A stretch of DNA of 42,979 nucleotides. Source: Salegentibacter agarivorans. Its GTDB lineage: Bacteria; Bacteroidota; Bacteroidia; Flavobacteriales; Flavobacteriaceae. This document shows positions 3,272 to 22,761 of this stretch, piece by piece. Location: NCBI RefSeq assembly GCF_900113135.1, contig NZ_FOOH01000033.1, positions 1 to 42,979 on the forward strand, given 5' to 3'. A program made the position numbers and the translations under genes. How positions within the stretch are numbered: the first letter of the stretch is position 1; each line of letters starts with the position of its first letter. The notes beneath the pieces are model-generated. The model had not been told where the DNA came from. It worked only from the letters and a program-made list of their open reading frames with translations, and made no database searches.

Positions 3272-3289
3272 TTATGACCAGACTCATAA
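3272..3289. promoter_or_regulatory. Crp/Fnr-type operator upstream of ric (TTATGA-N6-TCATAA)
   Basis: The sequence is a perfect 6+6 bp inverted repeat with a 6-bp spacer (CCAGAC). Its centre is 29.5 bp upstream of a -7-like box GATATTTG at 3310-3317 (one mismatch to TAnnTTTG). That would put the centre close to -42, the position of an activating class II Crp/Fnr site. The identical half-sites recur upstream of the nos operon and at 22744-22761. The palindromes and spacing are seen; binding is inferred. Confidence 0.7.
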
Positions 3290-3350
3290 AATAGCAGGAA
3301 GTCAAGGCAGATATTTGTAGAGAAATATTGTTCAACTTAAAGTTATTATT

Positions 3351-4073
3351 ATGAATACCGAAACTGTAAAAACCGTAGCCGATTATGTTACCGAAAATAT
3401 TAAAAACGCGCACCTGTTTAAAAAACACGGGATCGATTTTTGTTGCGGTGGCGGAATTAGTTTAGCCCAGGCTGCGACAAAAGCTAATGTGAGCCTTGAG
3501 GTACTGAAGAAAGAATTAGAGGAAACAGCCACGGTTACCACTCCCGGTTACGATTACAAAAACTGGAAACTGGATTTCTTAACCGACCATATTATAAACG
3601 TACATCACCAGTATGTAGAAGAAAATATCCCATTACTTATTCAATATGCGGCGCGTGTTGCCAAAGTGCACGGCCACGAAAGACCAGAACTTATAAGAAT
3701 TCAGCAATTATTTACCGAAGTTGCCCAGGAATTAAGCGCCCATTTAAAGAAAGAAGAACTTATTCTATTTCCATTTATCAAGAAACTGGTAAGAGCCGAG
3801 GAAGAAGGAACACCGGCACCAAAACCGCAATTTGGAAAAATTGATAATCCTATTAAAATGATGGAAACTGAGCACGATGATGCCGGTGCCATTTTTAAAG
3901 AAATTTCAGAATTAAGCGATAATTACAATTATCCTGAATGGGCTTGTAATACCTACAGGGCATTTTATGCAAAACTGGAAGAATTTGAAACCGACCTGCA
4001 TCACCACGTGCATTTAGAAAACAATATACTTTTCCCTAAGGCCATTGAGCTTGAACGCAGTTTAAACAGTTAA
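3351..4073 (+). CDS. ric: Iron-sulfur cluster repair di-iron protein (Ric/ScdA/YtfE family)
   Basis: This 240-residue cytoplasmic protein has the DUF542 N-terminal domain with the signature HGIDFCCGGG (Cys31-Cys32). A hemerythrin-like four-helix domain follows, with iron-ligand histidines and acids in DHIINVHHQYVEE, HLKKEELILFPF, METEHDDAG and HHHVHLENNILFP. Members repair iron-sulfur proteins damaged by nitric oxide or peroxide. The length equals that of ScdA/YtfE. It is transcribed alone, with an operator at 3272-3289 and a terminator after it. Sharing that operator with the nitrous oxide reductase operon fits a nitrosative-stress role. Confidence 0.93.
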   Translation: MNTETVKTVADYVTENIKNAHLFKKHGIDFCCGGGISLAQAATKANVSLEVLKKELEETATVTTPGYDYKNWKLDFLTDHIINVHHQYVEENIPLLIQYAARVAKVHGHERPELIRIQQLFTEVAQELSAHLKKEELILFPFIKKLVRAEEEGTPAPKPQFGKIDNPIKMMETEHDDAGAIFKEISELSDNYNYPEWACNTYRAFYAKLEEFETDLHHHVHLENNILFPKAIELERSLNS

Positions 4074-4150
4074 AGGTTGTTATATCCTGGAATCCCCATG
4101 CCAGGGTAGATTTAGTTTTTTATTTTAGAATGTTTTAATTGTGTTGATGA

Positions 4151-4185
4151 AACCCCGTAGCAGCAATGTTACGGGGTTAATTTTT
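4151..4185 (+). terminator. Intrinsic terminator after ric
   Basis: A 9-bp stem AACCCCGTA/TACGGGGTT with a 10-base loop is followed by AATTTTT. It lies about 80 bases after the ric stop and separates ric from the next gene. Confidence 0.8.
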
Positions 4186-4344
4186 GCTAATAATTGCAAC
4201 AATACAGCCATAACCCTCATTGTAATCCCGATTTTTACCGGGAGCAGCAATCTATAAATTTTACTCAAACCGGGAGTGATTGCTTAACCTTACTCGGTAT
4301 GGTGTTCCTAGTTCAATTTTTAAGTTAACTTCTTTTCTTTTTAG

Positions 4345-4352
4345 TATCTTTC
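4345..4352 (+). promoter_or_regulatory. -7 box next to the start codon of the membrane protein gene
   Basis: TATCTTTC matches the Bacteroidetes -7 consensus TAnnTTTG except for the last base. It ends five bases before the ATG at 4358, which implies a leaderless or nearly leaderless transcript. It also argues against a longer reading from 4280. The wording TTTnGGCCTATG is repeated before the gene at 40223. Confidence 0.5.
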
Positions 4353-4357
4353 GGCCT

Positions 4358-5578
4358 ATGTTGCGTTTGGATTTAAAAGCTCATCACAAAATAGCTATCG
4401 CCTATTTTTTCCTGGCCGCTTTGCTGGGAATTTTCCTGAGATTATTTTACGTAACCCCGGTTCCCGGGAATTATAAATACATTCTTCACACGCATTCCCA
4501 TATTGCTTTATTGGGTTGGGTGTATCTCGCTTTAACCGGCATTATTTATAGATTGTTTTTTCATAAAACTGAACTTTCAAGAAAATACATCTATATTTTC
4601 CTGGCTACAAATATTAGTTTGTTAGGAATGTTGTTTAGTTTTCCCTTCCAGGGCTATGCGGTGATTTCCATAATTTTTTCAACACTTTTCCTAATCTGCT
4701 CCTATTTTTATGCAGGCTTTGTGCTCCGCAATATTCCAAAGAAGCATAGTACAACTAAAAGCTTTAAACTTATAAAAGCAGCCTTATGGTATATGGTAAT
4801 TTCCAGCATAGGACCCTGGGCGCTTGGAGGGATTATGAGTACCCTGGGCAATACCTCAATTTGGTATAAACTCGCTGTATATTTCTATTTGCATTTTCAG
4901 TATAATGCCTGGTTTTTAGTGGCCTTACTGGGAATTTTATTTTATCTCTTTCAAAAATTAAATATAGATTTTGGCAGAAAGAAATTTAAACGGTTTTTCC
5001 TGTTGCTGAATTCCGGCGTTATTTTAAGCTTTTTTCTTTCCACTTACTGGACCAACCCACCGTTAATATTTTATCTAATGGGTGGGCTCGGAGTGATTTT
5101 ACTCCTCATCGCTTTTTACCAGTTTTTCGCCTTTATACTGCGGAATAGAAATCTTCTAAAAACAGGATTAAGTTCATTTAGTTATCGACTTTTAATGATT
5201 TCAGGCATATTGTTAGTCGGTAAAATTTTAATGCAAAGCCTTAGCGCCATACCCTTCTTCGCCGATTTGGCTTTTAATAATCTTGACTTTGTAATTGGCT
5301 ATTTGCACTGGGTTTTCCTGGGTTTTGTTTCCCTGGCTTTATTCGCTTTCCTAAACTGGTTCAAGCTAATTCGAATCCCGAAAAATGCTTTTTACCTTTA
5401 CCTCAGCGGTTTTCTAATTTCAGAAGCACTAATTTTCTACAAGGGCCTGGTACTTTGGTTAGGACTGCCTTTTTTTGGTAATTACTTTTTTTTACTGGTT
5501 TTAGTAAGTGCCTTAATGCCTATTGCCGTGGGATGGATTTTAGGAGTGAATTTGTTGAAAAGGCCGCCTCAAGAATAA
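4358..5578 (+). CDS. Polytopic membrane protein resembling heme-copper oxidase subunit I (NorB/cbb3/NnrS-like)
   Basis: The 406-residue protein is almost entirely hydrophobic, with about 12 membrane segments. Histidines sit inside helices in a way that recalls the heme ligands of heme-copper oxidase subunit I: HTHSHIALLGWVYL in the second helix, HFQYNAWFLVALLG midway and HWVFLGFVSLALF late. The paired copper histidines of true oxidases are not evident. It follows ric, so a role in nitric oxide or respiratory metabolism is plausible but inferred. An in-frame start at 4280 would add 26 residues, but a promoter box lies inside that extension. The exact family is uncertain. Confidence 0.55.
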   Translation: MLRLDLKAHHKIAIAYFFLAALLGIFLRLFYVTPVPGNYKYILHTHSHIALLGWVYLALTGIIYRLFFHKTELSRKYIYIFLATNISLLGMLFSFPFQGYAVISIIFSTLFLICSYFYAGFVLRNIPKKHSTTKSFKLIKAALWYMVISSIGPWALGGIMSTLGNTSIWYKLAVYFYLHFQYNAWFLVALLGILFYLFQKLNIDFGRKKFKRFFLLLNSGVILSFFLSTYWTNPPLIFYLMGGLGVILLLIAFYQFFAFILRNRNLLKTGLSSFSYRLLMISGILLVGKILMQSLSAIPFFADLAFNNLDFVIGYLHWVFLGFVSLALFAFLNWFKLIRIPKNAFYLYLSGFLISEALIFYKGLVLWLGLPFFGNYFFLLVLVSALMPIAVGWILGVNLLKRPPQE

Positions 5579-5646
5579 TTAATTTTCTTTCCTCGATAAT
5601 CGAGATTTAAATGCTCCGAGGTAGTTTACGATGATTTATATCTATT

Positions 5647-5676
5647 TTGAAAATAGTAACTTTTAAGTTACATTTG
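5647..5676 (+). promoter_or_regulatory. higBA promoter with an overlapping palindromic operator
   Basis: TTG at 5647-5649, a 19-bp spacer and TACATTTG at 5669-5676 match the Bacteroidetes promoter consensus (TTG-N19/20-TAnnTTTG). A 7-bp inverted repeat, GTAACTT-TT-AAGTTAC (5656-5671), lies between the two boxes and overlaps the -7 box. This is where a HigA-type antitoxin would bind to repress its own operon. Sequence features are seen; repression is inferred from the family. Confidence 0.7.
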
Positions 5677-5689
5677 TATTGGTGGAAAA

Positions 5690-6028
5690 ATTAGAAAAGT
5701 AATAGCATACAAGAATTATTTTCAAGATTTCCTGAGCAAACAACCTATAAAAGTTCAGGATAAAATCTATAAATTAATTGAAGCTATAGAAACATTTGAC
5801 CGCATTCCATCACATTATTTAAAAGCTCTAAAAGAGACAAACGGGCTTTACGAAGCACGCATAAAATTAGGCTCTGATATTTGGCGGGTTTTCTGTTTTT
5901 TCGACAAAGGAAAATTAGTGATTTTACTAAATGGTTTCACTAAAAAAACACAGAAAACTCCGAAAAGAGAAATAGACAAAGCTTTAAAATTAATGAAATC
6001 GTATTACTTAGATAAAAAGAAAAAATGA
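5690..6028 (+). CDS. HigB/RelE-like toxin (Gp49-type) with an apparent ATT start
   Basis: The frame encodes about 112 residues beginning (M)RKVIAYKNYFQDFL. It contains the family features LKALKETNGLYEARIKLG, SDIWRVFCFFDKGKLVILLNGF and a C-terminal KKTQKTPKREIDKALKLM. These are typical of Gp49-like HigB ribosome-dependent mRNA interferases. No ATG, GTG or TTG lies in frame near the N-terminus; the family start falls on ATT at 5690, six bases after GGTGG. Its TGA overlaps the antitoxin ATG (ATGATGG). The toxin is either translated weakly from ATT or silenced by loss of its start codon. The family call is firm; activity is uncertain. Confidence 0.8.
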   Translation: MRKVIAYKNYFQDFLSKQPIKVQDKIYKLIEAIETFDRIPSHYLKALKETNGLYEARIKLGSDIWRVFCFFDKGKLVILLNGFTKKTQKTPKREIDKALKLMKSYYLDKKKK

Positions 6029-6318
6029 TGGATGCAAAAGACTGGAAAACAATAAAAAATGAAGTTTACGGAGAGAAAGGAACTCCAAGAAGAGATGAAT
6101 TAGACAGGGATTTTGAATCTTTTAAAATAGGTCTTTTACTAAGAAAAGCGAGGGAAGAAAAAAACCTTACCCAAGACCAATTAGCAGAATTAATTGACAA
6201 GAAACGCACATATATTTCCCGGGTAGAAAACAACGGCAGTAATTTAACTTTAAAAACTCTCTACGATATCGTGGAAAAAGGGCTCGGAGGAAAAGTAAAG
6301 ATTTCAATAGAAATGTAA
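6025..6318 (+). CDS. HigA-like antitoxin, XRE-family DNA-binding protein
   Basis: This 97-residue protein has an N-terminal charged region and a C-terminal Cro/C1-type helix-turn-helix (IGLLLRKAREEKNLTQDQ, then LAELIDKKRTYISRVENNGS). The gene overlaps the upstream toxin by four bases, the toxin-first order typical of higBA. It probably neutralises the toxin and represses the operon through the palindrome at 5656-5671. Confidence 0.88.
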   Translation: MMDAKDWKTIKNEVYGEKGTPRRDELDRDFESFKIGLLLRKAREEKNLTQDQLAELIDKKRTYISRVENNGSNLTLKTLYDIVEKGLGGKVKISIEM

Positions 6319-6403
6319 GTGATCACACGTCTTAGGCTGTTACTACCTGTCACCAACTATCTCAAATTTTGACCACATTAACCTATGGTTTCCTTGTTTT
6401 TTA

Positions 6404-6411
6404 TAAGTTTG
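6404..6411 (+). promoter_or_regulatory. -7 promoter box of the Crp/Fnr gene
   Basis: TAAGTTTG matches TAnnTTTG and ends 20 bases before the ATG at 6432. No clear TTG box was found at the expected -33 distance, and no TTATGA-N6-TCATAA site is present, so autoregulation through that site is not supported. Confidence 0.5.
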
Positions 6412-6431
6412 CTTTGATTAAAATTTAAAAT

Positions 6432-7028
6432 ATGGTTGCGGAAAATATTTTACTGGAATTTGGAGCTTCAAGAGAAACTTACCATAAAGGTGACCAGCTT
6501 TTTAGGGAAGGAGAAATTGCACTTAATTTCTTTCAAATTATTTCCGGGGAGATCAAGATGAATAATTATAATGCCGACGGAAAGGAGTTTATACAGGGAA
6601 TGTTTACTGACGGCCAAACTTTTGGCGAACCACCCTTGCTGGCCGATGTGAAATATCCCGCCAATGCTGAAGCTATAAAAACCTCTGAAGTTTTAAAACT
6701 CCCCAAACTAAATTTCCTGGAGCTACTTACAAAGCATCCCGAAACCCACCTAAAACTCACCCGCACCCTGGCTGAAAGGCTTTTTTACAAAGCGATTATG
6801 GTTTCAGAAATTTCAAGCCAGGATCCGGAGCATCGAATAATCAGGATCCTGGATTATCTAAAGCGTTACGTACATCAGATTGAAGGGCAGTTTAAATTTA
6901 AAGTAAACCTGACCCGCCAACAGATAGCAGATTTAACCGGACTTCGAGTAGAAACTGTAATTAGGGCTATGAAAGGGCTGGAAAAGAAAGGTGAACTAAA
7001 AATTAGAAGCGGAAAAGTTTATCGTTAA
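6432..7028 (+). CDS. Crp/Fnr-family transcriptional regulator
   Basis: The 198-residue protein has an N-terminal cyclic-nucleotide-type beta barrel (residues about 10-120, with KGDQLFREGE and FGEPPLL). A dimerisation helix and a C-terminal winged helix follow (LTRQQIADLTGLRVETVIRAMKGLEKKG). It has no cysteine, so it cannot carry an Fnr-type iron-sulfur cluster; DNR/NnrR-like or ligand-binding Crp types are more likely. The recognition helix keeps the Glu and Arg (VETVxR) that contact the TGA core in Crp and Fnr half-sites. It faces the end of the nos operon only a few bases away and is the best candidate for binding the TTATGA-N6-TCATAA sites. Confidence 0.88.
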   Translation: MVAENILLEFGASRETYHKGDQLFREGEIALNFFQIISGEIKMNNYNADGKEFIQGMFTDGQTFGEPPLLADVKYPANAEAIKTSEVLKLPKLNFLELLTKHPETHLKLTRTLAERLFYKAIMVSEISSQDPEHRIIRILDYLKRYVHQIEGQFKFKVNLTRQQIADLTGLRVETVIRAMKGLEKKGELKIRSGKVYR

Positions 7029-7033
7029 TTCGG

Positions 7034-7816
7034 TTAAAAATCTTTTTTTGAAGCCAGGCGTAGCATTCCCCAAACCGGTAGAATTACCCAGGCCAGCAAC
7101 ACCCCAAAACTTATAATACTCCCTTTGGTTGTACCAAAAAATGATTTAAACACTGCACCGGTATATCCTAAAAGTGCTGAAATATCTAATTTTAGTAAAA
7201 TTAAGGTTCTGCTTAAATCTATAGGATTTAGTACACTTGCAGCCAAGGCAAAATCTTCTAAAGGATATTCCTGGAAATACATTAAAAGTAAAAGGAAAAT
7301 TCCGTCGTAAATAATTGCCAGGAAAAGCCACATTAAAATTGCCATCCCGAAACCTTTAATTTTATTCTCAAACCTGAGAGCAATTCCAAAGGAAAGTGCG
7401 GTAAAAATAAAAGTTAGAAAAGAACCCACTACCAATAAAGAAAGGAAATCCCAAATGGCTGAAGATTCCAATAAGCCATAAATTATAAAAGGAATTCCCA
7501 GCCCCAAAACCAGGCTAAGAGCCAACGATATTGCCACGCCTAAATATTGCCCTAAAAAAATATGTTTACGGGCTATGGGTTGCGCCAGGAGCAGCTCGGT
7601 AAATTCCCGGGAATTATAAAAATACATAATCCCAAAAATAGTCCCAATAAGCGGTACCAGAACAATAATAACATTCATTAAGGTAATGATCGCATTAGAA
7701 AGGTCGTTGTTTAAAAACAATAACACCAAACCTAATAACAGATAGAAGAAGAAATAAACAAAGCTCCACCGACTTCTAAAAAGATCAAAAAAACTGTATT
7801 TAAGAATTTTAAACAT
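7034..7816 (-). CDS. nosY: NosY, ABC transporter permease of the nos maturation system
   Basis: This 260-residue inner-membrane protein has about six transmembrane helices and the REFTELLLAQPIARKHIFLGQ segment typical of NosY and related ABC-2 permeases. With NosF and NosD it forms the transporter thought to supply sulfur or copper-site material to NosZ in the periplasm. It is the last gene of the operon, starting five bases after nosF, and ends five bases from the convergent Crp/Fnr gene. No terminator is seen in that tiny gap. Confidence 0.9.
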   Translation of the reverse strand: MFKILKYSFFDLFRSRWSFVYFFFYLLLGLVLLFLNNDLSNAIITLMNVIIVLVPLIGTIFGIMYFYNSREFTELLLAQPIARKHIFLGQYLGVAISLALSLVLGLGIPFIIYGLLESSAIWDFLSLLVVGSFLTFIFTALSFGIALRFENKIKGFGMAILMWLFLAIIYDGIFLLLLMYFQEYPLEDFALAASVLNPIDLSRTLILLKLDISALLGYTGAVFKSFFGTTKGSIISFGVLLAWVILPVWGMLRLASKKDF

Positions 7817-7821
7817 AAGGC

Positions 7822-8517
7822 TTAGGTTAATATTTGGGCAATAGCGTGTTCAAGATCATCCTGACCGGTTTGTGTTTTTAGCTCGGTAATACTACCGTTA
7901 AAATAAATTACGCCTTCTAACAAGAATAAGATTCTATCAGCTGTTTCTTCTACGAAATTCATAATGTGAGAAGTAATAATTATTGTTTTCCCGGCAGCTT
8001 TTTCCTTTTGCAATAACTCTCTTAGTTTTATTAAAGAAGCAGGATCCAGCCCCGAGGTAGGTTCATCTAAAATTATCAACGGACTGTCAAACATAAAACA
8101 CAGTACGATATTCACTTTTTGGCGGGTACCACCAGAAAGTTTACTCAGTTTTTTATCCAGAAAATTTTCTATACCAAAAAAAGCAATTAGTTCTTTATCC
8201 CGGGCAGGTTTTCCCCTTAAATCCTTGATCATTCCAATCAATTCTTTTACGGTAAGGTTGCCGGGAAAATTGGCAATTTGCGGTAGATAATCAATCTCCT
8301 GCCGGTAGTCACTTTGCCGGCGAATTTTCTTACCATTTACAGCGATTTTTCCTTGTTGCGGAATTACCATACCCAGCAAGCTTTTAATAAGAGTGGTTTT
8401 TCCTGAACCATTGGGACCAAGCACCGCAATTATTCCCGCGACATTGGTCTCCAGGTTGAGGCCGTTTAAAACCTTTTGGGATCCAAAACGTTTATGAAGA
8501 TTTGTTACCGTTACCAT
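7822..8517 (-). CDS. nosF: NosF, ABC transporter ATPase
   Basis: The 231-residue cytoplasmic ATPase shows Walker A GPNGSGKT (residues 34-41), the Q-loop in IDYLPQIANFPGNLT, the signature LSGGTRQK, Walker B PLIILDEPTSGLDP and the switch His in IITSHIMNFVE. It powers the NosDFY complex. Its start overlaps the nosD stop by seven bases, implying coupled translation. Confidence 0.93.
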   Translation of the reverse strand: MVTVTNLHKRFGSQKVLNGLNLETNVAGIIAVLGPNGSGKTTLIKSLLGMVIPQQGKIAVNGKKIRRQSDYRQEIDYLPQIANFPGNLTVKELIGMIKDLRGKPARDKELIAFFGIENFLDKKLSKLSGGTRQKVNIVLCFMFDSPLIILDEPTSGLDPASLIKLRELLQKEKAAGKTIIITSHIMNFVEETADRILFLLEGVIYFNGSITELKTQTGQDDLEHAIAQILT

Positions 8518-9746
8518 TGTATTTTTCTAATATAAGGTTGTTGGTCCAGCACATTGGCCGGTGTAAAAATGGGAGAAACTTTTTCTGAAAATTCAATTAG
8601 GTCTATAAACAGGCTTCTAAGCATTACAATACTTTCAGGCGTTTTATCTACTAAATAAGAAAATAAACTCACCGGCCTGTAAGGGATATCTCCAAAATTG
8701 TTTTTATCAAGATCGTAGCCGGAATAATTGCTCCAATAATTTCCGTTAAAAGTATTTCCGTTACTATGCCCAGTATAGGTAAGATCAAAAGAATTATATA
8801 AAAAATTATTTCGATTAAAAACGTTATTGTAGCAGCCACCTCTAATTTTCACAGCATAGCCGTTACTTTTAAAATTGTTTTCTATATAATTTATCCGGTT
8901 GGTATTATCGGCGCTAATGCCTACGGTGTTTTCTTCAAAAGTATTCTGTTTTAATTCAGAGTCTGTTATGTCTTTCAGCAACAAACCATAAGAAGCGCTT
9001 CCCCAGTTGTTTTTAAAGGTATTGCGGTACATTAAAATTTCTTTTGAATACATTACCGCTACTCCTGCTCCATTATTATCAAAAAGATTCCCGGAATAGG
9101 TATTACCATCAGAAAACATAAAATGCAGCCCGTATCTTAAATTATTCTTACATACATTATTTATAATTTCGGTATCGTCTGTAAATTCCAGGTAAATTCC
9201 GTCGCGAACGCCTTCCAGGTGATTATCTTCAATATGCATTTCTGAAGTTTTCCAAAGATGAATAGCATTGCCGGAATGAGCCTGGCTGGTTGCTTTACCG
9301 GTCACCTGGTTACCCACAATACGCCCGTTATTAGAACGTTCTATTAAAATTCCGAAGAAAATATTATCAAAACGGTTATTCTTAACTTCAAAATTAGTGG
9401 AATTACTGACTAAAATTGCGGAAAAATCGCTGGTATGACTTCTCCCTATATTGATGATTTTAAAGCCTTCAATTGTAAATGCATCAGCCCTAAAACTAAT
9501 TGCCGTACCTTGCATTTCAGCATCAATAACCGGGAAATCTTCGCCAATTAGGGTTAAAGATTTATCACTTATAACAATATCATTTTCCTTGTAAACACCG
9601 GGTTTTACCCTAATGGTGTCCCCAGATTTCGCAACTTCAACCGCGTTTTTGATAGATTTGATTTCACAGGTTTCACAAACCGTAATTTCTGTAGCGTAAA
9701 AGCTGAAACTAATAAAAAAAAGGAAGATGAAGAGCACAGCTTTCAT
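8511..9746 (-). CDS. nosD: NosD, periplasmic copper/NosZ maturation protein
   Basis: The 411-residue protein begins with a Sec signal peptide (LFIFLFFISFSFYATE). Repeated short beta-strand units follow, rich in N and G (NNRFDNIFFG, NNLRYGLHFMFSDGN, YWSNYSGYDLD). These form a right-handed parallel beta-helix of the CASH/NosD type. NosD delivers components for the CuZ centre of nitrous oxide reductase together with NosF and NosY. Its length and ending fit the family. Confidence 0.92.
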   Translation of the reverse strand: MKAVLFIFLFFISFSFYATEITVCETCEIKSIKNAVEVAKSGDTIRVKPGVYKENDIVISDKSLTLIGEDFPVIDAEMQGTAISFRADAFTIEGFKIINIGRSHTSDFSAILVSNSTNFEVKNNRFDNIFFGILIERSNNGRIVGNQVTGKATSQAHSGNAIHLWKTSEMHIEDNHLEGVRDGIYLEFTDDTEIINNVCKNNLRYGLHFMFSDGNTYSGNLFDNNGAGVAVMYSKEILMYRNTFKNNWGSASYGLLLKDITDSELKQNTFEENTVGISADNTNRINYIENNFKSNGYAVKIRGGCYNNVFNRNNFLYNSFDLTYTGHSNGNTFNGNYWSNYSGYDLDKNNFGDIPYRPVSLFSYLVDKTPESIVMLRSLFIDLIEFSEKVSPIFTPANVLDQQPYIRKIQW

Positions 9747-9752
9747 GGTAAA

Positions 9753-10157
9753 TTACTTAAAATTATTTTTCAATTCTTCCCAGTCCTGAAGTTCTCCGTT
9801 ATCACGGCTTTCTTTTTTCACAGCGGCAAGGTTAGCTCCCATTGGGCTTCGTAAACTATCGTTTTGCACAAAGCCGGCATCAGAAACCGGTAGCATGTTG
9901 CCGGGTTTATCGTAATTAGAAACTAAAAGAAAAGAAGTTTGGTATTCTCTCTGGTTCATATCATTCACCAGGCATTCTATAGCATCGTATTTATACTGTT
10001 TACCCTTATCGGTCACTAGCTGTGCCGAGTAAGCCTGCTCTACAATCGTCATTTGACAAAAGTGGCAATGGTCTTTACCATACTTAATTGGTTCTGGCTC
10101 AAAACTACAGGCCGAAAAAACAAAGACTATGGCTAATATGTAAAATGAAAATTTCAT
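9753..10157 (-). CDS. nosL: NosL, copper-binding lipoprotein
   Basis: This 134-residue lipoprotein has lipobox FVFSAC and the metal-binding motif HCHFCQM near the N-terminus, the known Cu(I) site of NosL. It is thought to carry copper to the NosZ assembly machinery. Its start codon overlaps the stop of the upstream membrane protein, and nosD follows six bases later. Confidence 0.92.
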   Translation of the reverse strand: MKFSFYILAIVFVFSACSFEPEPIKYGKDHCHFCQMTIVEQAYSAQLVTDKGKQYKYDAIECLVNDMNQREYQTSFLLVSNYDKPGNMLPVSDAGFVQNDSLRSPMGANLAAVKKESRDNGELQDWEELKNNFK

Positions 10158-10771
10158 TATTTCAGGGTTTTTAAAGCTTTTTTACGAATCCACCAGGCTA
10201 CCAAAGTTAAAGACATTCCAATAAACATTAGATAAGCACCGGTTCTGGGATACGAATGGGCGGTAAAGTTCAGAATTTTTTGCGTACCGAATAATGGTGG
10301 TTTATAGTTTATAGGGTTTCCCTCAGAATCGGTTAATTTTATAATTGCCTTAGGATCCAGATCCGTACCATAATCTAACAACCAGTTATTGAAATCGTAC
10401 ATTCCCAGCAAACCAAGAACAAGCATTAAGATAAACCAACCTAAAAACCAGGAAGCGGAGATTTTTTTAAAAAATCCTAAAGCACCTAAGAGAACTCCTA
10501 ATATGGCCATACCCGCAATGACTATGGGAAAAACCTGGAACTCCCACATTTCAGCCGGCTTTGGAATTTTCTTCATTCCTATATAATGATTTACCCCGTC
10601 TATATTCTGAATATCAAATTCTTCTTCTCCTTCTATCCCGCTAATAAAAATATCCATTCCCATAGGATCGGGGTATTGGGGTGCGCCAAGTTGAATATTC
10701 CATAAAGGAAAATAAAACAGGCCTAACAAGAGAAGTGAGCCCAATATCATTAAAATTGCAGATCGTTTCAT
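10157..10771 (-). CDS. Conserved nos-cluster membrane protein of unknown function
   Basis: This is a 204-residue protein, starting MKRSAILMILGSLLLLGLF. It has about four membrane helices: one at the N-terminus, two in the middle (FPIVIAGMAILGVLLGALG, WFLGWFILMLVLGLLG) and one at the C-terminus (TGAYLMFIGMSLTLVAWW). A periplasmic loop contains YPDPMGMDIFISGIEG. A longer reading from 10870 is rejected because it would run through the terminator-like hairpin. Comparable small membrane proteins accompany nosZ in Bacteroidetes; the function is unknown. The position between nosZ and nosL suggests a part in NosZ maturation or electron transfer. Confidence 0.7.
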   Translation of the reverse strand: MKRSAILMILGSLLLLGLFYFPLWNIQLGAPQYPDPMGMDIFISGIEGEEEFDIQNIDGVNHYIGMKKIPKPAEMWEFQVFPIVIAGMAILGVLLGALGFFKKISASWFLGWFILMLVLGLLGMYDFNNWLLDYGTDLDPKAIIKLTDSEGNPINYKPPLFGTQKILNFTAHSYPRTGAYLMFIGMSLTLVAWWIRKKALKTLK

Positions 10772-10841
10772 ATGCTTATGTATTATTAAACAGATTTGGG
10801 AGGCTATAAAAAAGTATTGTCTTAGAAAGTCTTTAAAAAAT

Positions 10842-10880
10842 AAAGGAGGGCGCAAACAACTGGCCGCCACCCTCCTTTTT
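10842..10880 (-). terminator. Terminator/attenuator inside the nos operon, after nosZ
   Basis: Read on the minus strand, a GC-rich stem (AAAGGAGGG pairing with CCCTCCTTT) is followed by TTTATTTTTT. It lies between the nosZ stop and the next nos gene with no new strong promoter seen. It probably ends part of the transcripts, so that nosZ is made in excess of the maturation proteins. Confidence 0.7.
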
Positions 10881-10901: not shown

Positions 10902-12869
10902 CTAGTTACTTGTATATTCGTCATCTAAGCCCCATTTCATCGGGGTATTAGCTCCTTCTGCAGAAACTCTTATGTAACCCTGCATTTCCTGGTGAAGTGC
11001 AGAACAGAAGTCGGTACAATAGAATGGCCATACACCGGGTTTCTTAGGTTCCCATGTAATGGTTTTTGTTTGTCCGGGCATTATTAAAAGCTCTGATGTA
11101 TTAGCTCCAATTACTGCGAAACCGTGAGGTACATCAAAATCCTGCTCTAAGTTGGTTACGTGGAAATATACTTTATCTCCCACGTGAATACCTTCAAGGT
11201 TATCTGGAGCAAAGTGGCTTCTTACCGTGGTCATATACACGTGAACTTCATTGCCCTCACGAACCATTTTGGTTTCACTTTCATTAACAGCGGCATACTT
11301 GTGATTATTCTCATCTAAACGATAAATCTTTTTTGAATTTTCTTTGATTTTATCGGCTTTAATGGCAGCTGCGTAATGCGGCTCACCGTGTGTTGGAAAA
11401 TCAAGTAACAACTCCATTTTATCACCTGAAATATCAAACAACTGCGCAGAGTGTTCTAGCTCGGGGCCGGTTGGTAAATACCTGTCTTTGGTAATTTTGT
11501 TTAAGGAAATCATATATTTTCCATCTGGTTTTCTTGAGTTTCCTCCAGAAATCATTAAGTGACCTACAGAGTAATAACTAGGCTGTCTATCTACAACTTC
11601 CCAGGTATCTAATTTCCATTTTACAACTTCAGAAGAGATAAAGAATGTAGTATAAGCATTTCCTTTATCATCAAATTCGGTGTGCAATGGGCCTAAACCT
11701 GCTTCCTTAACGGTTCCTGCTAAGGTAGACTCGAAATTAAGTACTGGAATTCCGTAAGCATCTCCATCAAATTCTTCATTTTCAATAGCATCAAGCATTT
11801 TACTGAATGAATGCACGGTAAGGTCACTGGAAAGTTTTCCGTTTCCAATAATATATTCTCCTGAAGGATCTACATCACAACCGTGAGGAGATTTGGGAGT
11901 TGGCATAAAATATACTGCACCGGGTATATCACGAGGATCTACTCTAAGCACTTCGTTTTTGGTGGTAGAAATAGTAGTTTGAGTATCGTGGTCAAACACA
12001 TTATGAACATACTCAGCATCCATAGTTTCCCCGCCTCCATTTTCTACATATTCGCTTATTTTCTTCCAGTTAACTGCAGCAATAAAATCCTTATCGTTTT
12101 GCGAAGCATTTACTTCCTGCATAGTATGTGATTCTTCTGTATTATACGTAGTAAAGAAGAACCAACCGTGAGATTCCCCACGCCCTGGGTGAGAAAGATC
12201 ATAGTTAAAGCCGGGCATATCTATTTGAAAGTCAATTTCCATATGGCCATCATCGCCTACTGCAATAAAAGTTAAGGGCCCTCTAAAATTTCCTTTCATT
12301 TCATCTATAGGCATGTCTTTTTGAGGATAAGGCACTGAAAATCGTGTACCGGCCACCACATATTCGGTGTTTTCGGTAACATAAGAAGAAGAGTGGTTAC
12401 CCGCACTGTGTGGGATCTCAATAATCTCTTCGGTTTCAAAAGTTTCCAGGCTTATTCTGGCAATCCTGGGGGTGTTGTTCTCATTTATAAAAATCCACCT
12501 TCCATCTATTTCCCCGTTAGTTTGAGAAATATCGGGGTGGTGAGAATCTCCCCACGGCACCATACCAAACGAGGTTTTTAGCATATCTTTAGTTTCTTCG
12601 GAATAACCATACCCATTGGTAGGAAACTGAGAAAATACAGGAATTTCTTTTAGCATCCTTCCAGATGGAAGCCCGTAAACGGTTAGGTTCCCACTGTAAC
12701 CTCCAGAAAGGAAAGCGTAGTATTCGTCGTGTTCTCCAGGGCTAACATAAACTTTTTCTGCAGCGCTGGAAGCCATAGCACCCGATTTCCCTCCTTCATC
12801 ATTCTGGTTACAGGATGTAAAGATTGCGGCAAGTGCAAATACGGCGATAAAATTTGTGATTGTTTTCAT
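10902..12869 (-). CDS. nosZ: Nitrous oxide reductase, clade II type, lipoprotein
   Basis: The 655-residue enzyme reduces N2O to N2 in the periplasm. It begins with a Sec lipoprotein signal (LAAIFTSC) instead of a Tat signal, a mark of clade II NosZ. The seven-bladed propeller carries CuZ histidines in GDSHHPDIS, IPHSAGNHSSS, SPHGCDVDPSG and GEPHYA. The C-terminal cupredoxin domain has the CuA ligands CTDFCSALHQEM, preceded by HGFAVIG. It follows the cytochrome c gene by 68 bases and is presumably co-transcribed from the promoter near 13480. A mid-operon terminator follows it. Confidence 0.96.
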   Translation of the reverse strand: MKTITNFIAVFALAAIFTSCNQNDEGGKSGAMASSAAEKVYVSPGEHDEYYAFLSGGYSGNLTVYGLPSGRMLKEIPVFSQFPTNGYGYSEETKDMLKTSFGMVPWGDSHHPDISQTNGEIDGRWIFINENNTPRIARISLETFETEEIIEIPHSAGNHSSSYVTENTEYVVAGTRFSVPYPQKDMPIDEMKGNFRGPLTFIAVGDDGHMEIDFQIDMPGFNYDLSHPGRGESHGWFFFTTYNTEESHTMQEVNASQNDKDFIAAVNWKKISEYVENGGGETMDAEYVHNVFDHDTQTTISTTKNEVLRVDPRDIPGAVYFMPTPKSPHGCDVDPSGEYIIGNGKLSSDLTVHSFSKMLDAIENEEFDGDAYGIPVLNFESTLAGTVKEAGLGPLHTEFDDKGNAYTTFFISSEVVKWKLDTWEVVDRQPSYYSVGHLMISGGNSRKPDGKYMISLNKITKDRYLPTGPELEHSAQLFDISGDKMELLLDFPTHGEPHYAAAIKADKIKENSKKIYRLDENNHKYAAVNESETKMVREGNEVHVYMTTVRSHFAPDNLEGIHVGDKVYFHVTNLEQDFDVPHGFAVIGANTSELLIMPGQTKTITWEPKKPGVWPFYCTDFCSALHQEMQGYIRVSAEGANTPMKWGLDDEYTSN

Positions 12870-12937: not shown

Positions 12938-13453
12938 TCAGTTTTCGGCATCATACTGTCTAAAATATTCTACAATAGCCCTGGCCTGATCTTCTTCCAG
13001 TCCCTGATTGGCCATAATTGCCATATTAGACTCTACCATTAATCTTTTGGCGATAGGATCTTTTTTAATCATCTCTTCGGGATTAAGAATCATATTCATA
13101 ATCCATTCTGGTGATCTTCTTTCGGTTACACCTTCTATAGCCGGACCAACAAATTTCTTATCCATTTTATGGCAGGCAGAACACATATTCTTAAAGATAC
13201 TGGCTCCATTGGCTGCCATATCAGAATTAATGCTTTCTGGCAAATCCAAAGATTTTACCGGGCCAATTCCTTTATTAGATAAATCGTCTCCCGAATCTGC
13301 GGCAGCTTCTGTGGTTTCAGTTTCTTTTTCTTTTGGTTGTGAAGAGTAATCGTCCAGGCGTAGGCTTTCTTTTTCGTCTTTTTCAGAATTGCCACAAGCC
13401 ACAAAAGAAAATACCAGCGCTACAGCCAATCCTATTTTTACAATTAATTTCAT
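12938..13453 (-). CDS. Monoheme c-type cytochrome lipoprotein, likely electron donor to NosZ
   Basis: This 171-residue protein starts MKLIVKIGLAVALVFSFVAC, a lipoprotein signal. An acidic linker and one cytochrome c domain follow, with heme motif CSACH (in FKNMCSACHKMDKKFVGP) and a later Met ligand candidate (MAIMANQG). It is the first gene of the nos operon. Clade II nos clusters usually include cytochromes c that pass electrons to NosZ, the likely role here. A longer reading from 13498 would start inside the promoter and is rejected. Confidence 0.88.
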   Translation of the reverse strand: MKLIVKIGLAVALVFSFVACGNSEKDEKESLRLDDYSSQPKEKETETTEAAADSGDDLSNKGIGPVKSLDLPESINSDMAANGASIFKNMCSACHKMDKKFVGPAIEGVTERRSPEWIMNMILNPEEMIKKDPIAKRLMVESNMAIMANQGLEEDQARAIVEYFRQYDAEN

Positions 13454-13477: not shown

Positions 13478-13485
13478 TAAAATTA
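13478..13485 (-). promoter_or_regulatory. -7-like box of the nos operon
   Basis: On the minus strand TAATTTTA (one mismatch to TAnnTTTG) lies 25 bases before the ATG at 13453. It is exactly 29.5 bp from the centre of the palindrome at 13506-13523, the same distance as at ric. No good -33 TTG is evident, as expected for an activator-dependent promoter. Confidence 0.5.
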
Positions 13486-13505
13486 CCCGAGAAGTCAATC
13501 TTATT

Positions 13506-13523
13506 TTATGACCCCAATCATAA
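13506..13523. promoter_or_regulatory. Crp/Fnr-type operator of the nos operon (TTATGA-N6-TCATAA)
   Basis: This is a perfect inverted repeat with spacer CCCCAA, 53 bases before the start of the cytochrome c gene. It has the same half-sites as the sites at 3272-3289 and 22744-22761 and the same distance to the -7 box as at ric. It is the probable activation site for denitrification-linked expression. Confidence 0.72.
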
Positions 13524-14163: not shown

Positions 14164-14169
14164 CTTCCT

Positions 14170-16100: not shown

Positions 16101-16228
16101 AAAAAATTAAAAAATGAGAATATATATTTTAAAGTATTGATTATCAGAACTCAAAGAAGTAAAATTGAATTCCTATTATTTTCTGTATTGGAAAGAAATT
16201 ACCCGGGTGGGAGATAATTACCCGCAGC

Positions 16229-17548
16229 TTATTTAATCTTTTCCCGTAAGGTTTTACGGTCTATTTGAAGGATTTCTGCTGCTTTAGATTTGTTTTGATC
16301 TACCGCTGCAAGAACTTTTAAAATATGCTTTTTTTCTACTTCTTTTAAGGCAACTAATTCTTCATCTACAGCCGGGACCTGGTATTTTACCGAAGCAGGT
16401 AGGTCTTGCGGAAGAATTTCATCTTCACTCATAATTATGGCTCGTTGAATCACGTTTTCTAATTCCCTAATATTCCCCGGCCAATTGTAACGCTTTAAAA
16501 TTTCAACAGTTTTATCTGATAATTTTAAACCGGTTTTGCCATAATCCTGTTGGTATTTATCCAGAAAAGTTTTGGTAAGGGGAACAATATCTTCTTTTCT
16601 TTCCCGTAAAGGCGGGGTAAGAATATCTACCACATTTAAACGATAGTAAAGATCTTCCCTGAAAGTTCCTCTTTCTACCATTTCCCTTAAATCGCTGTTT
16701 GTTGCAGCAATTACCCGAACCTGGATTTTTTCTGAATTTCTACCGCCCAGTTTTCTTACTTCTTTTTCCTGAAGCACACGCAATAACCTAACCTGAACCG
16801 CCAGTGAGGCTGTACCAATTTCATCTAAAAAAATAGTACCGCCATTAGCAGCCTGGAAGTAACCTTCGCGGGTTTCTGAAGCACCTGTATAAGCTCCTTT
16901 AGTAGAACCAAATAATTCTGATTCCAGTAAATTCTCGGGAATAGCACCACAGTTAACTGCAATAAATGGATTTTGAGCAAAAGAACCTTTATAATGAATT
17001 GCCCGTGCCACCAGTTCTTTCCCGGTACCACTCTCTCCTCTTATTAAAATTGTAGCACGGTTATTTTTCACTCTTTCTATAATATCTACCAACTCTTCAA
17101 ATTTTGCTGAAGAGCCAACCATTCCGCCATAATTATTTCTAATTTCGGGTGAAGAAGCGGTTTTTTTCGTTGATGTACGGTTGACTAAAGATTTTTTAAC
17201 TGAAGTAAGTAACTCGTTTTTAGTAAATGGTTTAGGCAAATAATCTAAAGCACCAGATTTTATTGCGGTAAGTGCATTATCTATAGAAGGATAGCCGGTA
17301 ATTACAAGTTTAGGAATTTCAGGATAATGATCGTCTACATATTTCACCAATTCCATTCCGTTCATTCCCGGCATTTGTAGGTCGGTGATCAATAAATCTA
17401 TACTGCTATGCTTTAAAATATCTATAGCTTCCATCACCGAACCAGCCTTGTAAGTATGGTAATTCTCCTGTTTTAGGTGGCGGTCCAGTACTTCAAGCAT
17501 ATCATAATCGTCATCTACAATAAGTAAGTTTTCTTTGCGTATAGACAT
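16229..17548 (-). CDS. Sigma-54-dependent response regulator, NtrC family
   Basis: The 439-residue activator has a receiver domain (phosphoacceptor Asp56 in LLITDLQMPG). An AAA+ domain follows, with Walker A GESGTGKE, the sigma-54 contact loop GAYTGA (a variant of GAFTGA), Walker B GGTIFLDEIG and the arginine-finger region. The C-terminus is a Fis-type helix-turn-helix (NKSKAAEILQIDRKTLREKIK). It starts one base after the kinase gene ends. A sigma-54-type promoter lies just beyond its 3' end, in front of the gdh operon, a likely target. Confidence 0.94.
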   Translation of the reverse strand: MSIRKENLLIVDDDYDMLEVLDRHLKQENYHTYKAGSVMEAIDILKHSSIDLLITDLQMPGMNGMELVKYVDDHYPEIPKLVITGYPSIDNALTAIKSGALDYLPKPFTKNELLTSVKKSLVNRTSTKKTASSPEIRNNYGGMVGSSAKFEELVDIIERVKNNRATILIRGESGTGKELVARAIHYKGSFAQNPFIAVNCGAIPENLLESELFGSTKGAYTGASETREGYFQAANGGTIFLDEIGTASLAVQVRLLRVLQEKEVRKLGGRNSEKIQVRVIAATNSDLREMVERGTFREDLYYRLNVVDILTPPLRERKEDIVPLTKTFLDKYQQDYGKTGLKLSDKTVEILKRYNWPGNIRELENVIQRAIIMSEDEILPQDLPASVKYQVPAVDEELVALKEVEKKHILKVLAAVDQNKSKAAEILQIDRKTLREKIK

Positions 17549-17549
17549 A

Positions 17550-18650
17550 TTAGAAATTCAATGGTAATTTTATTTTAAAAATAGTTCCTTTTGGAATGTT
17601 ATCGGCAATGCTAATTTCTCCTTTATGACTTTTAATTATCCCGTGAACCACACTTAATCCAAGACCGGAACCTTCCCCCAGTGGTTTTGTAGTATAAAAA
17701 GGTTCAAAAATTTTATCTTTCACTTCAGGAGCAATTCCTTTTCCTTCATCGGCAATTTCAATAGTATAATGTGTTTCGTTATTATTAATGGAAATAACAA
17801 TTTTGGAATTTTCCGGAGAATAATAAATCGCATTAATCACTAAATTAAAAAATACCTGGGTTAATTGTATAGGGTCTACCTGTGCTTTTAAAGCAGGATC
17901 CTGAATATTAAATTTAAACCGAATATTAGCTTTTTTAAAATTAGGTTTTAAAAGCGAAAGCGCCTGGGTAATAATGGGTTTCACCTTAATTTTTTTAATG
18001 TCTTGCGGCATATCACAGGAGAAAAACATAAGCTTTTTTACAACTTCCCTAGAATAAATTGCTGAATTAAGGATCTTTTGCGCATCTCGTTTTGTTTGCT
18101 TTTCAGCCGTTTTTTCTTCAATAAATTCAGAAAAACCTAAAATATTACCTAACGGAGTATTAAGCTCGTGCGCTATTCCCGCGGTAATTTCTCCCAGAAT
18201 AGCCAACCGGTCATTTCTTGCAGCGGTTTGTTTTAAATGTTCTTCCTGTATTTTAATATTTTGGCGTTCAAAAAACAGCGCAATTTCATCGGCTATTTTA
18301 TCTAAAAGTCGCTGTTCTTCCACCAAAAAATGCGCTTTAGATAAATCTGAGGCCGGATAATGTACTTTTATGAAACCTATTTCATTTTCAGAAATTTTAA
18401 TAATACTTTTTTGGGAATAACCTTCTTTTGGAGTTGGATTAGAACTCAAATGATACGATTCACATTGTATCTCTACAGTAGCCAATTCTGGAAAACGCCA
18501 GGCATTTTTAAGAATTTTTACAATAGATTCTAAAGTAGCCTCATAAGAACCCTCAAACTCCCTTATAGCCGATGAAACCTGATAAAGACAGGAGAGTTCT
18601 TTAATTCGCTCTTGCAATTTCTCTTCTACAGAAATACTTTCAGGTATCAT
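17550..18650 (-). CDS. Soluble sensor histidine kinase partner of the NtrC-like regulator
   Basis: This 366-residue kinase has no membrane helix. The N-terminal half is a GAF-like sensor (residues about 10-130), joined by a helix to the H box GIAHELNTPLGN (near residue 160). The ATPase domain has the N box VINAIYYSPEN, DEGKGIAP, FEPFYTTKP and GSGLGLSVVHGI. It would phosphorylate the regulator encoded directly downstream in response to an internal signal. The signal is unknown; nitrogen state is a guess from the gdh neighbourhood. Confidence 0.92.
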   Translation of the reverse strand: MIPESISVEEKLQERIKELSCLYQVSSAIREFEGSYEATLESIVKILKNAWRFPELATVEIQCESYHLSSNPTPKEGYSQKSIIKISENEIGFIKVHYPASDLSKAHFLVEEQRLLDKIADEIALFFERQNIKIQEEHLKQTAARNDRLAILGEITAGIAHELNTPLGNILGFSEFIEEKTAEKQTKRDAQKILNSAIYSREVVKKLMFFSCDMPQDIKKIKVKPIITQALSLLKPNFKKANIRFKFNIQDPALKAQVDPIQLTQVFFNLVINAIYYSPENSKIVISINNNETHYTIEIADEGKGIAPEVKDKIFEPFYTTKPLGEGSGLGLSVVHGIIKSHKGEISIADNIPKGTIFKIKLPLNF

Positions 18651-18749
18651 CTTAAACAGGGTTCTTTTAGCAAAGATAAGGGGATTTCTTAAGCTAAATT
18701 AATTTGGATTAAGTTTGATGTAGTTAAGTAAAAATACCTTTTAAAAATT

Positions 18750-18784
18750 AGGGTATAAAAAAAAGCGGCCTCTAAAGCCGCTTT
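18750..18784 (-). terminator. Intrinsic terminator after the SYLF lipoprotein gene
   Basis: The stem AAAGCGGC/GCCGCTTT (18762-18784) with a 7-base loop is followed on the minus strand by a run of T. It ends the lipoprotein gene ahead of the kinase gene. Confidence 0.85.
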
Positions 18785-18806
18785 CATACTTACAAATAAT
18801 TATTTT

Positions 18807-19349: not shown

Positions 19350-21921
<2,572 letters not shown>

Positions 21922-21945
21922 TTACTAAAAATCAGGTAATAATTT

Positions 21946-21982
21946 AACCCCATAATTATCAAATTATGGGGTTTATTTTTTT
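21946..21982 (+). terminator. Intrinsic terminator after katG
   Basis: The stem AACCCCATAATT/AATTATGGGGTT has a 4-base loop and is followed by TATTTTTTTT. Confidence 0.9.
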
Positions 21983-21997
21983 TGAATTTTTTCAGTA

Positions 21998-22684
21998 TTA
22001 ATTCAGCTCAAATTGCTGTTTGGGTTGACGTAATAGCTTTTCTAAACCTAAAAGACGAAGTACAAAAACACCGATTAAAATGGTTAATGCAATTTTAAAA
22101 TAGTAGAGTAAAGAAGTGATTCCCGAACTTGATTTATAATGTGCCATTAATTGTTGTCCTACTTCCGGTTGAATGCTGGCAATATTATGCAAATCCAGGT
22201 TTAAAACTTTAAAATAATCGTTCGCATTTTTATTAATTAGATAGCTGGCAGTAGTAAAATCTTCTTCCTTTAAATTTTCAAGAATGGTGTTTTCCAAAAC
22301 CAGGTACTCTTTATAATGCTTCTGAAAATCTTCAAAGTAAACCTCTTCCCGCTCTACTAAATAGGTTTGACTATAATCTTGTAAAACCTGATCCATTTTA
22401 GAATTATACGTCGTAATTTCGTTTAAATTGAAAGCTGCATTATACTCCCCATTGTCCTTAATATCTTCAAAGAGCATTCTTTTTTCATGGAGAATTTCAG
22501 AAAGCTCATAAATTTGGGATGCAGGTAGAAGACGATCCTGATAAAGAGAAGAAAAATCCTGATCTATGCTTTTCAAACTCCTTTTCTCAATAAATTCGGT
22601 AATTAGCAAGAACGCAAAAAAAGCACTTAACAATAAAATAAGACGTTTGCGCTTTTTTGGCTTTATGGAATAGAGGTCTTTCAT
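21998..22684 (-). CDS. Membrane protein with a four-helix-bundle (MCP-like) periplasmic sensor domain
   Basis: The 228-residue protein starts MKDLYSIKPKKRKR. It has a transmembrane helix (LILLLSAFFAFLLITEFI), about 150 residues of extracytoplasmic helices (SLYQDRLLPASQIYELSEI, EYLVLENTILENLKEEDF), a second transmembrane helix (IALTILIGVFVLRLLG) and a short basic tail. This is the layout of the 4HB_MCP sensor module of chemoreceptors and kinases, but without any output domain. A start six codons upstream (22702) is possible, but the -7 box at 22704-22711 makes 22684 more likely. The Crp/Fnr-type operator shared with ric and nos suggests a role in nitrogen-oxide respiration or signalling. Confidence 0.68.
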   Translation of the reverse strand: MKDLYSIKPKKRKRLILLLSAFFAFLLITEFIEKRSLKSIDQDFSSLYQDRLLPASQIYELSEILHEKRMLFEDIKDNGEYNAAFNLNEITTYNSKMDQVLQDYSQTYLVEREEVYFEDFQKHYKEYLVLENTILENLKEEDFTTASYLINKNANDYFKVLNLDLHNIASIQPEVGQQLMAHYKSSSGITSLLYYFKIALTILIGVFVLRLLGLEKLLRQPKQQFELN

Positions 22685-22703
22685 TTTAATAAATTTAGGC
22701 ATG

Positions 22704-22711
22704 CAAATATA
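22704..22711 (-). promoter_or_regulatory. -7 box of the four-helix-bundle protein gene
   Basis: TATATTTG on the minus strand is a full match to TAnnTTTG, 19 bases before the ATG at 22684. It lies 41.5 bp from the centre of the upstream palindrome, 12 bp (about one helix turn) further than at ric and nos. Confidence 0.6.
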
Positions 22712-22743
22712 CCTATCAATTTAATGATTTTAAGTCATTTATA

Positions 22744-22761
22744 TTATGATTATCCTCATAA
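22744..22761. promoter_or_regulatory. Third Crp/Fnr-type operator (TTATGA-N6-TCATAA)
   Basis: This perfect inverted repeat with spacer TTATCC lies between the terminator of the barrel-protein gene and the promoter of the four-helix-bundle protein gene, 59 bases before its preferred start. Half-sites are identical to those of ric and the nos operon. Confidence 0.7.

Follow-up and report, generated by a model that had tools for sequence, protein, structure and literature searches.

Here, we report on an 18 base pair (bp) palindrome, TTATGA-N6-TCATAA, of which three perfect copies lie in a 42,979-nucleotide stretch of Salegentibacter agarivorans DNA (contig NZ_FOOH01000033.1; the whole stretch is hereafter called the window). 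From comparisons of sequences we consider it probable that an activator of the Crp/Fnr type, most likely the regulator encoded at 6432..7028 (hereafter REG), uses this palindrome as its operator and controls a nitrogen-oxide regulon from the class II position. A first-pass annotation of the window had proposed a nitrogen-oxide regulon. That interpretation is supported and largely right, except that the site at the nitrous-oxide reductase (nos) operon does not by itself point to REG and that the third site has a different spacing to its promoter. The features of the window are as follows.

3272..3289, ric operator TTATGACCAGACTCATAA, exact match, centre at about -41.5
3310..3317 (+), -7 box of the ric promoter GATATTTG, 5/6 against TAnnTTTG, 20 bases past the palindrome
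3351..4073 (+), ric, iron-sulfur cluster repair di-iron protein (TIGR03652, E 4.6e-73, over the cut-off)
6432..7028 (+), REG, Crp/Fnr-type regulator of 198 residues (cNMP_binding and HTH_Crp_2)
7034..10870 (-), rest of the nos operon, with Pfam matches except for 10157-10870: permease nosY 7034-7816, ABC ATPase nosF 7822-8517, nosD 8511-9746 and nosL 9753-10157
10157-10870, conserved membrane protein between nosZ and nosL, present in 60/60 loci of relatives, without a Pfam or NCBIfam match
10902..12869 (-), nosZ, Sec-dependent (clade II) nitrous-oxide reductase (TIGR04246, E 2.8e-281)
12938..13453 (-), cytochrome c, first gene of the nos operon (PF00034, E 1.2e-9)
13478..13485 (-), -7 box of the nos promoter TAATTTTA, 5/6 against TAnnTTTG, 20 bases past the palindrome
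13506..13523, cytochrome c-nosZ operator TTATGACCCCAATCATAA, genes on the minus strand, exact match, centre at about -41.5
21998..22702 (-), four-helix-bundle (4HB_MCP_1) membrane protein (PF12729, E 8.2e-24)
22704..22711 (-), possible -7 box of the four-helix-bundle gene TATATTTG, 32 bases past the palindrome
22744..22761, third operator TTATGATTATCCTCATAA, exact match, 50 bp before the four-helix-bundle gene

A scan of the window located the exact palindromes at 3272-3289, 13506-13523 and 22744-22761, all in promoters, as the first-pass annotation had claimed, and profile matches confirmed the genes that it had named behind them (ric, the cytochrome c-nosZ operon and the 4HB_MCP_1 membrane protein). 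The claimed rarity also held: 100 dinucleotide shuffles gave no exact copy, and the whole genome (4,298,571 bases in 56 contigs) contains only five, compared with one for the reversed pattern. Three of these five fall within 20 kb on the window contig (C55). The fourth, also in a promoter, is at C26:49124, 60 bp before the gene of a 93-residue membrane protein, which is followed by a group III truncated haemoglobin gene. All four promoter sites carry T on both sides as the outer half-site base. The fifth exact copy (C12:7565) lies in what by eye is a probable small coding frame, with the same letters in genome G200, and was counted as not regulatory; two sites in other genomes, inside a 921-codon frame (G203:C8:65323) and a 245-codon frame (G200:C52:72371), were likewise not counted. 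With up to two mismatches the window holds seven matches against 5.2 expected, and with at most one the genome holds 49 true and 52 reversed matches, with no surplus of near-copies. Since near-copies are at the background level, only the perfect copies stand out, and degenerate copies were rejected as a class of added regulon members, a few outer-base variants being kept as leads. A tally of the exact motif across a family sample of 199 genomes was uninformative, as at least 148 of them have at least one copy and the counts per genome are of the same order as those of the reversed control.

The site is conserved within the genus, to which the closest named relatives of REG also belong (99% to S. 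salinarum DSM 23400). Nine Salegentibacter genomes, including that of S. agarivorans, hold 33 exact sites against 15 for the reversed control; 25 of the 33 stand before ric, the nos operon, the four-helix-bundle gene or the haemoglobin operon, one stands before norB, and seven are in frames or unassigned. The clearest case is ric, where the exact site lies 70-72 bp upstream in 7/7 Salegentibacter loci that had been collected through the regulator search and not through the motif. In an alignment of these promoters with that of the window (eight sequences), all 12 half-site positions are invariant, compared with 22 of 90 flanking columns. For the other alignments the loci were chosen for their exact site, so that half-site identity there is a matter of choice. 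The spacer and flanks keep 5/6 and 22/90 columns at nos (five Salegentibacter sequences) and 1/6 and 8/90 at the haemoglobin operon (eight sequences); at the four-helix-bundle gene, found with its site in 3/3 of the Salegentibacter genomes read that carry it, they keep 2/6 and 72/90, so that the flanks are conserved too. One ric of S. echinorum (L345) matches at 9/10 positions. Conservation at ric and nos in relatives had been named beforehand as a check, and both the reading of loci and the promoter counts bear it out.

The distance between operator and promoter is also constrained. In class II Crp/Fnr activation the operator is centred near -41.5. The -7 box of flavobacteria occupies -12 to -5 in mapped promoters, according to the available part of PMC9723704, a paper whose main text mentions neither Fnr nor Crp. 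With the box at -12 to -5, the centre of the palindrome comes to -41.5 or -42.5, which is the class II position. The first-pass annotation had put the centre of the palindrome 29.5 bp from the -7 box. Measured to the first base of that box, this distance proved exact at both ric (3310-3317) and nos (13485-13478), and with it the class II placement near -42 holds at these two promoters. To extend this analysis, we assembled 121 different perfect TATGA-N6-TCATA sites from this genome and its relatives, all within 200 bp of a gene and with duplicates removed, which cover the nos, ric, haemoglobin-operon and four-helix-bundle promoters. A TAnnTTTG box (at least 5/6) starts 20 bases past the site in 84 of them and 21 bases past it in 30, that is, in 114/121 without double counting, compared with 0-4 sites at any of the remaining offsets between 8 and 33. 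When the downstream bases were shuffled, a box at offset 20 or 21 was found at a mean of 2.3 and a maximum of 7 of the 121 sites. Judged by these predicted boxes, the operator is near -41.5 at ric, at nos and at 114 of the 121 perfect sites. The site at 22744 differs: its best box is 12 bp further off than at ric and nos, which puts its centre at about -53.5, outside the class II position, and in Salegentibacter the best box of the four-helix-bundle promoters is at offset 32 in 3/3. To be activated from this site, the promoter would require either a different arrangement or a weaker box closer to the palindrome.

Several lines of evidence connect these sites to REG, which was counted as present at a match of E 1e-20 or better and was found in 35 of the 199 family genomes. 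Promoters were compared in 200-bp windows, one per genome, with TATGA-N6-TCATA matched at 9/10 or better (27 haemoglobin-operon and 25 ric promoters from genomes with REG). REG often neighbours the gene pair of membrane protein and haemoglobin, and the haemoglobin-operon site is present in 24/27 genomes with REG, against one for the reversed control, and in 0/2 without REG, a small group because many haemoglobin loci were collected around REG. Among named loci with the first gene of this operon, the site is found in 30/31, L364 being the miss; at L347 and L350 it precedes the second of two copies. The ric site occurs in 10/25 genomes with REG and 1/26 without, with reversed controls of 0 and 0 (Fisher p 0.0015 on a slightly larger table, 10/25 against 1/28, which leaves out the truncated gene of G169/L190). 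Across the 199 genomes, REG also co-occurs with RIC, which is present in 78 (p 3.6e-5). As internal controls, the same 200-bp windows before nosD (0/61), nosL (0/63) and the 10157-type gene (0/63) contain no site. The REG gene itself carries a site in part of the family: in group-B orthologues (44-53% identical), the end of a site with one mismatch or none is 4-9 bases ahead of the REG start in 11/13 loci, the exceptions being L111 and L122. These 13 are from the 17 loci L106-L122, with L109, L114, L115 and L118 left out. The same exact site stands before REG by coordinates in G026, G078, G119 and G156.

The proposed co-occurrence of motif and REG orthologues stands for ric and the haemoglobin operon. 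At nos, the site is about as frequent in genomes without REG (40/44) as in those with it (15/19). In all, a cytochrome c-nosZ site was found in 55/63 genomes against 1/63 for the reversed pattern, and REG as the sole reader of this site was rejected, since most genomes without REG keep it. Other Crp/Fnr proteins are at hand. Nine proteins of S. agarivorans match the cNMP-binding family, eight of them above the cut-off, and all except one of 642 residues read as Crp-like; helices of the ExxIR type are found in REG (RVETVIR), in a REC-Crp protein on contig C26 (ASETLIR) and, degenerate, in another REC-Crp on C20 (STESFIR). REC-Crp occurs in 86/199 genomes, with at most the best ten candidates per genome scored, and a cysteine-bearing FNR-like protein (Cys-FNR; helix TATESAIR) in 118/199, with no match in this genome or in G031, of the same genus. 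With bootstrap support of 98-100%, proteins of the REG, REC-Crp and FNR types fall into one group each, while the way in which the groups join is uncertain; all three have Ile at CRP position 184 within the E-x-x-I-R helix. NosZ was over the cut-off in 87/199 genomes, and each of these 87 carries at least one of the three regulators, compared with 39 of 112 other genomes that carry none. REC-Crp is strongly associated with nosZ (59/86 against 28/113; p 7e-10) and FNR less so (p 0.0035). The outer half-site base also varies, in a comparison in which gene and regulator are confounded: it is T 133, A 19 and G 2 at ric and haemoglobin promoters of genomes with REG (133/154 T), T 7, A 48 and G 1 at nos promoters without REG (48/56 A), and T 12 and A 12 at nos promoters with REG. 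Since the promoter sites of S. agarivorans all have T, they are taken to be operators of REG, and there is some chance that the nos site serves REC-Crp as well. In relatives, Cys-FNR and REC-Crp, which share the ExxIR helix, probably use the nos site as well.

Two further features were observed in 60 loci fetched around nosZ out of the 87 nosZ genomes, which share the gene order cytochrome c, nosZ, the 10157-type gene, nosL and nosD. A gene for an Rrf2-family regulator is present in 42/60 (for example L179:12172-12606) and is less frequent in loci with REG (8/18 against 34/42, p 0.012). A second palindrome, A[AG]GAY-N6-RTCYT, is found in 43/60 nos promoters (L153-L212), and none was seen by eye in the nos promoter of the window. 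Pairing of this palindrome with the Rrf2 gene was considered and showed no clear link (33/42 loci with Rrf2, 10/18 without, p 0.12).

A number of observations weigh against REG as the main regulator of these sites. In group A, which holds the REG of the window, an exact site was found within 300 bp in only 1/13 loci, 143 bp upstream, and no such site precedes the REG gene of this genome; the argument from autoregulation therefore rests on group B. The ric site is absent from 15 of the 25 genomes with REG, REG is only weakly tied to nosZ (21/35 against 66/164, p 0.04) compared with REC-Crp, and the close relative G007 has REG and lacks the nos site. In G031, a single outer base departs from the motif at nos and at one of the two ric genes, and the orthologue furthest from REG among those read (G138, L122) has the helix SIEATIR and no good site. 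Finally, the Fisher values ignore kinship, and because the genomes are related they overstate independence.

Three other explanations have to be set against operator use by REG. That the palindromes arose by chance in intergenic DNA rich in A and T, or that they are bound by some unrelated protein that bends DNA, is very improbable. The parity of one-mismatch and reversed matches and the C12 copy in a probable coding frame would suit it, but it is opposed by the empty shuffles, by half-sites invariant in eight ric promoters not chosen for the site whose flanks keep 22/90 columns, by the fixed spacing to the -7 box and by the internal promoter controls of 0. It is more conceivable, though still unlikely, that the sites of S. 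agarivorans are bound mainly by the C26 REC-Crp under an adjacent PAS histidine kinase, which would make them an oxygen or redox two-component regulon and not a nitrogen-oxide one. This protein has a related helix, its gene is 2.6 kb from the haemoglobin-operon site, and its family is the one most strongly associated with nosZ; the ATATGA-type sites before 2-oxoacid:ferredoxin oxidoreductase genes in G031 and G007 would also suit anaerobiosis. However, the ric site is found in just 1/19 genomes that have REC-Crp and lack REG, and the haemoglobin-operon site persists in 9/10 genomes that have REG and lack REC-Crp, so that the sites follow REG and not REC-Crp. The outer base argues in the same direction, as the four sites here have the T of REG-linked ric and haemoglobin promoters and not the A of nos promoters without REG.

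A shared operator deserves much more weight, and we place it just short of an even chance: REG, REC-Crp and, in relatives, Cys-FNR would bind one palindrome with overlapping preferences, and nosZ would here integrate two signals. Genomes with the nos site occur in every regulator class, no nosZ genome among the 87 is without a member of the trio whereas 39/112 others have none, ExxIR is common to three well-supported clades, and nos sites of genomes with REG are half T and half A at the outer position. Against this, a regulator that is present need not be in use, proteins of the Crp/Fnr type are common, and the trio was chosen after the nos sites were known. In a further reading, one operator would serve three sensors: the nosZ promoter would keep TATGA-N6-TCATA at -41.5 while its reader is swapped among Cys-FNR, REC-Crp and the cysteine-free REG, with Ile at CRP position 184 reading A:T. 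We regard this as a tentative idea, slightly more doubtful than probable. If true, Ile184 would read A:T at a base that is read as G by CRP and as T by FNR, position 184 would become the third position of the published two-position code (R180, E181), and nitrous oxide (N2O) reduction in Flavobacteriaceae would be tunable by a change of sensor instead of a change of site.

REG, the activator in the preferred reading, belongs to the Crp/Fnr superfamily by its domains (PF00027, E 1.3e-18; PF13545, E 3.5e-9). For this superfamily a palindromic operator with a TGA-N6-TCA core is expected, and the sites described here are associated with REG. Its AlphaFold model (mean predicted local distance difference test score 89.9) matches Clr and CRP best in the PDB. 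As a search for its ligand class, this comparison returned the general CRP fold and no closer hint. In a profile search REG also matched DNR (structure sequence 3dkw, E 6.4e-23), with CRP entries ranked higher. The first-pass description of a cysteine-free protein with VETVxR is accurate, as REG has 0 cysteines and the helix RVETVIR, and 30 orthologues read have 0-2. It thus lacks the cysteines of a 4Fe-4S FNR cluster. In CRP, an Arg-Ser pair holds the phosphate of the cyclic nucleotide; in a pairwise alignment, Tyr75-Pro76 of REG faces this pair of E. coli CRP and is invariant in 29 REG proteins, unlike a cAMP-type CRP. With no cysteine and Tyr-Pro in place of Arg-Ser, REG fits the mechanism of neither FNR nor CRP. 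Within the recognition helix, all 29 aligned proteins share R172, E174, T175, I177 and R178 (L122 was left out of this alignment); with these residues in common, groups A and B should bind alike, and by this argument the operator was carried over from group B to the protein of the window. The predicted targets (Fe-S repair and truncated haemoglobin, and norB and nirK in relatives) point to nitric oxide (NO) as the REG signal, which we hold to be slightly more likely than not. DNR senses through haem. REG may possibly sense NO through haem in the same manner as DNR and as HcpR, the latter as described in the available part of PMC12750200.

In the mechanism that we infer from the positions, conservation, promoter geometry and co-occurrence of the sites, a REG dimer would bind the palindrome centred at -41.5 and recruit RNA polymerase to the flavobacterial promoter in class II fashion. 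It would thereby turn on ric, the operon of membrane protein and group III truncated haemoglobin on the other contig, and cytochrome c-nosZDFY, with nitric oxide or a related nitrogen oxide as the probable trigger. The four-helix-bundle gene is probably a regulon member too, a fourth target whose promoter lies about one helical turn away. Where REG and the haemoglobin operon diverge, the palindrome just before the REG start probably also represses REG. The nos operator would be wider than REG, as in relatives without REG a Cys-FNR or a REC-Crp with an ExxIR helix probably acts there.

Some details of the target genes should be added. The open reading frame of the cytochrome c was called from a TTG at 13498, and translation more probably begins with the ATG at 13453. 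The haemoglobin encoded on C26 has a match to 2ig3 (E 5.2e-12), the structure of a group III truncated haemoglobin that we take to be Campylobacter Ctb; neither the C26 protein nor the 93-residue membrane protein has a Pfam or NCBIfam match. This membrane protein (L015:10792-11073) is usually paired with a group III truncated haemoglobin in REG-linked loci, apart from L347 and L350. Between the nos operon and the four-helix-bundle gene, the window encodes a sigma-54-type response regulator with a histidine kinase (16229-18650) and a peroxidase-family protein of 751 residues, by its size a catalase-peroxidase (19666-21921).

Further sites were noted in this genome and in relatives. An exact site (L305:2394-2411) lies about 200-240 bp before norB in G031, and an ATATGA-type site (L308:1587-1604) lies before nirK in G007. 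In S. agarivorans, TTATGAGTCGAATCATAT at L302:2024-2041 (G000:C31:97523) stands about 94 bp before a gene for a hemerythrin HHE protein, with a CAAATTTG box that by eye starts 20 bases past it; from this arrangement the gene is likely a further regulon member. Also in this genome, ATATGATATTTATCATAT at L301:2101-2118 (G000:C22:167100) separates two divergent genes whose 138-residue products look similar, and by eye a -7-like box is seen at offset 20 in either direction. ATATGA-type sites (L311:2017-2090, L310:1483-1500), a tandem pair in G031, are found between a 2-oxoacid:ferredoxin oxidoreductase gene and a ferredoxin-like gene, and their location suggests a putative anaerobiosis branch of the same operator.

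Clade II nosZ, whose product can consume the greenhouse gas N2O, is common in flavobacteria, as the 87 of 199 sampled genomes indicate. With the operator defined and its distance to the promoter fixed, nitrogen-oxide regulons can be predicted in Flavobacteriaceae, and it can be tested whether N2O reduction is switched on by low oxygen or by NO. The operator also looks like a new type for the Crp/Fnr family and comes with a clear residue-to-base prediction. No description of this operator, or of the regulation of a flavobacterial nos operon, was found in the parts of the open-licence literature that were available, and one may exist elsewhere.

The operators of HcpR, DNR and NssR, and a rule that pairs R180 with G3 and E181 with A6, are given in PMC1274295, which was available in part and to which the comparisons below refer. 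REG has Glu at 181 with A6 and Val at 180 with A3; as judged from its sequence it obeys the R180/E181 rule, with a base, A3, that is not named in the available part of that source. DNR and NnrR, which activate denitrification in proteobacteria, are like REG in being Crp/Fnr proteins, and the operator described here likewise stands at nos and, in relatives, at nor and nir genes. DNR and NnrR control denitrification and NO genes; the targets predicted here from sequence are ric, nosZ and the truncated haemoglobin gene and, in relatives, norB and nirK. However, the DNR operator is TTGATnnnnATCAA-like (PMC1274295), in contrast to TTATGA-N6-TCATAA, which is not TTGAT-N4-ATCAA or close to it as expected for DNR/NnrR. 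HcpR and HcpR2 (including those of Porphyromonas and Bacteroides) are likewise Crp/Fnr regulators of nitrosative-stress genes with members in Bacteroidota. They differ in their motifs, wTGTGAn6TCACAw and TTGACn4GTCAA for HcpR, GTAACn4GTTAC for HcpR2 and another type in P. gingivalis, and HcpR2 has Pro, Ser or Gln at 181 where REG has Glu (PMC1274295); the available part of PMC12750200 gives no operator consensus. The main target of HcpR is hcp, for which no search was made here. NssR of Campylobacter jejuni is similar as a Crp/Fnr regulator of a single-domain globin gene, but it has another operator, TTAACnnnnGTTAA, and another helix, with A180 and Q181 (PMC1274295). FNR has a related fold, Glu at 181 and Arg at 185; it differs from REG, which is without cysteine, in the helix (VETISR in E. 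coli FNR, VETVIR in REG) and in its box, TTGATnnnnATCAA, as cited in PMC1274295. Set beside these systems, the sites described here probably represent a Crp/Fnr nitrogen-oxide regulon with an operator sequence of its own and interchangeable readers.

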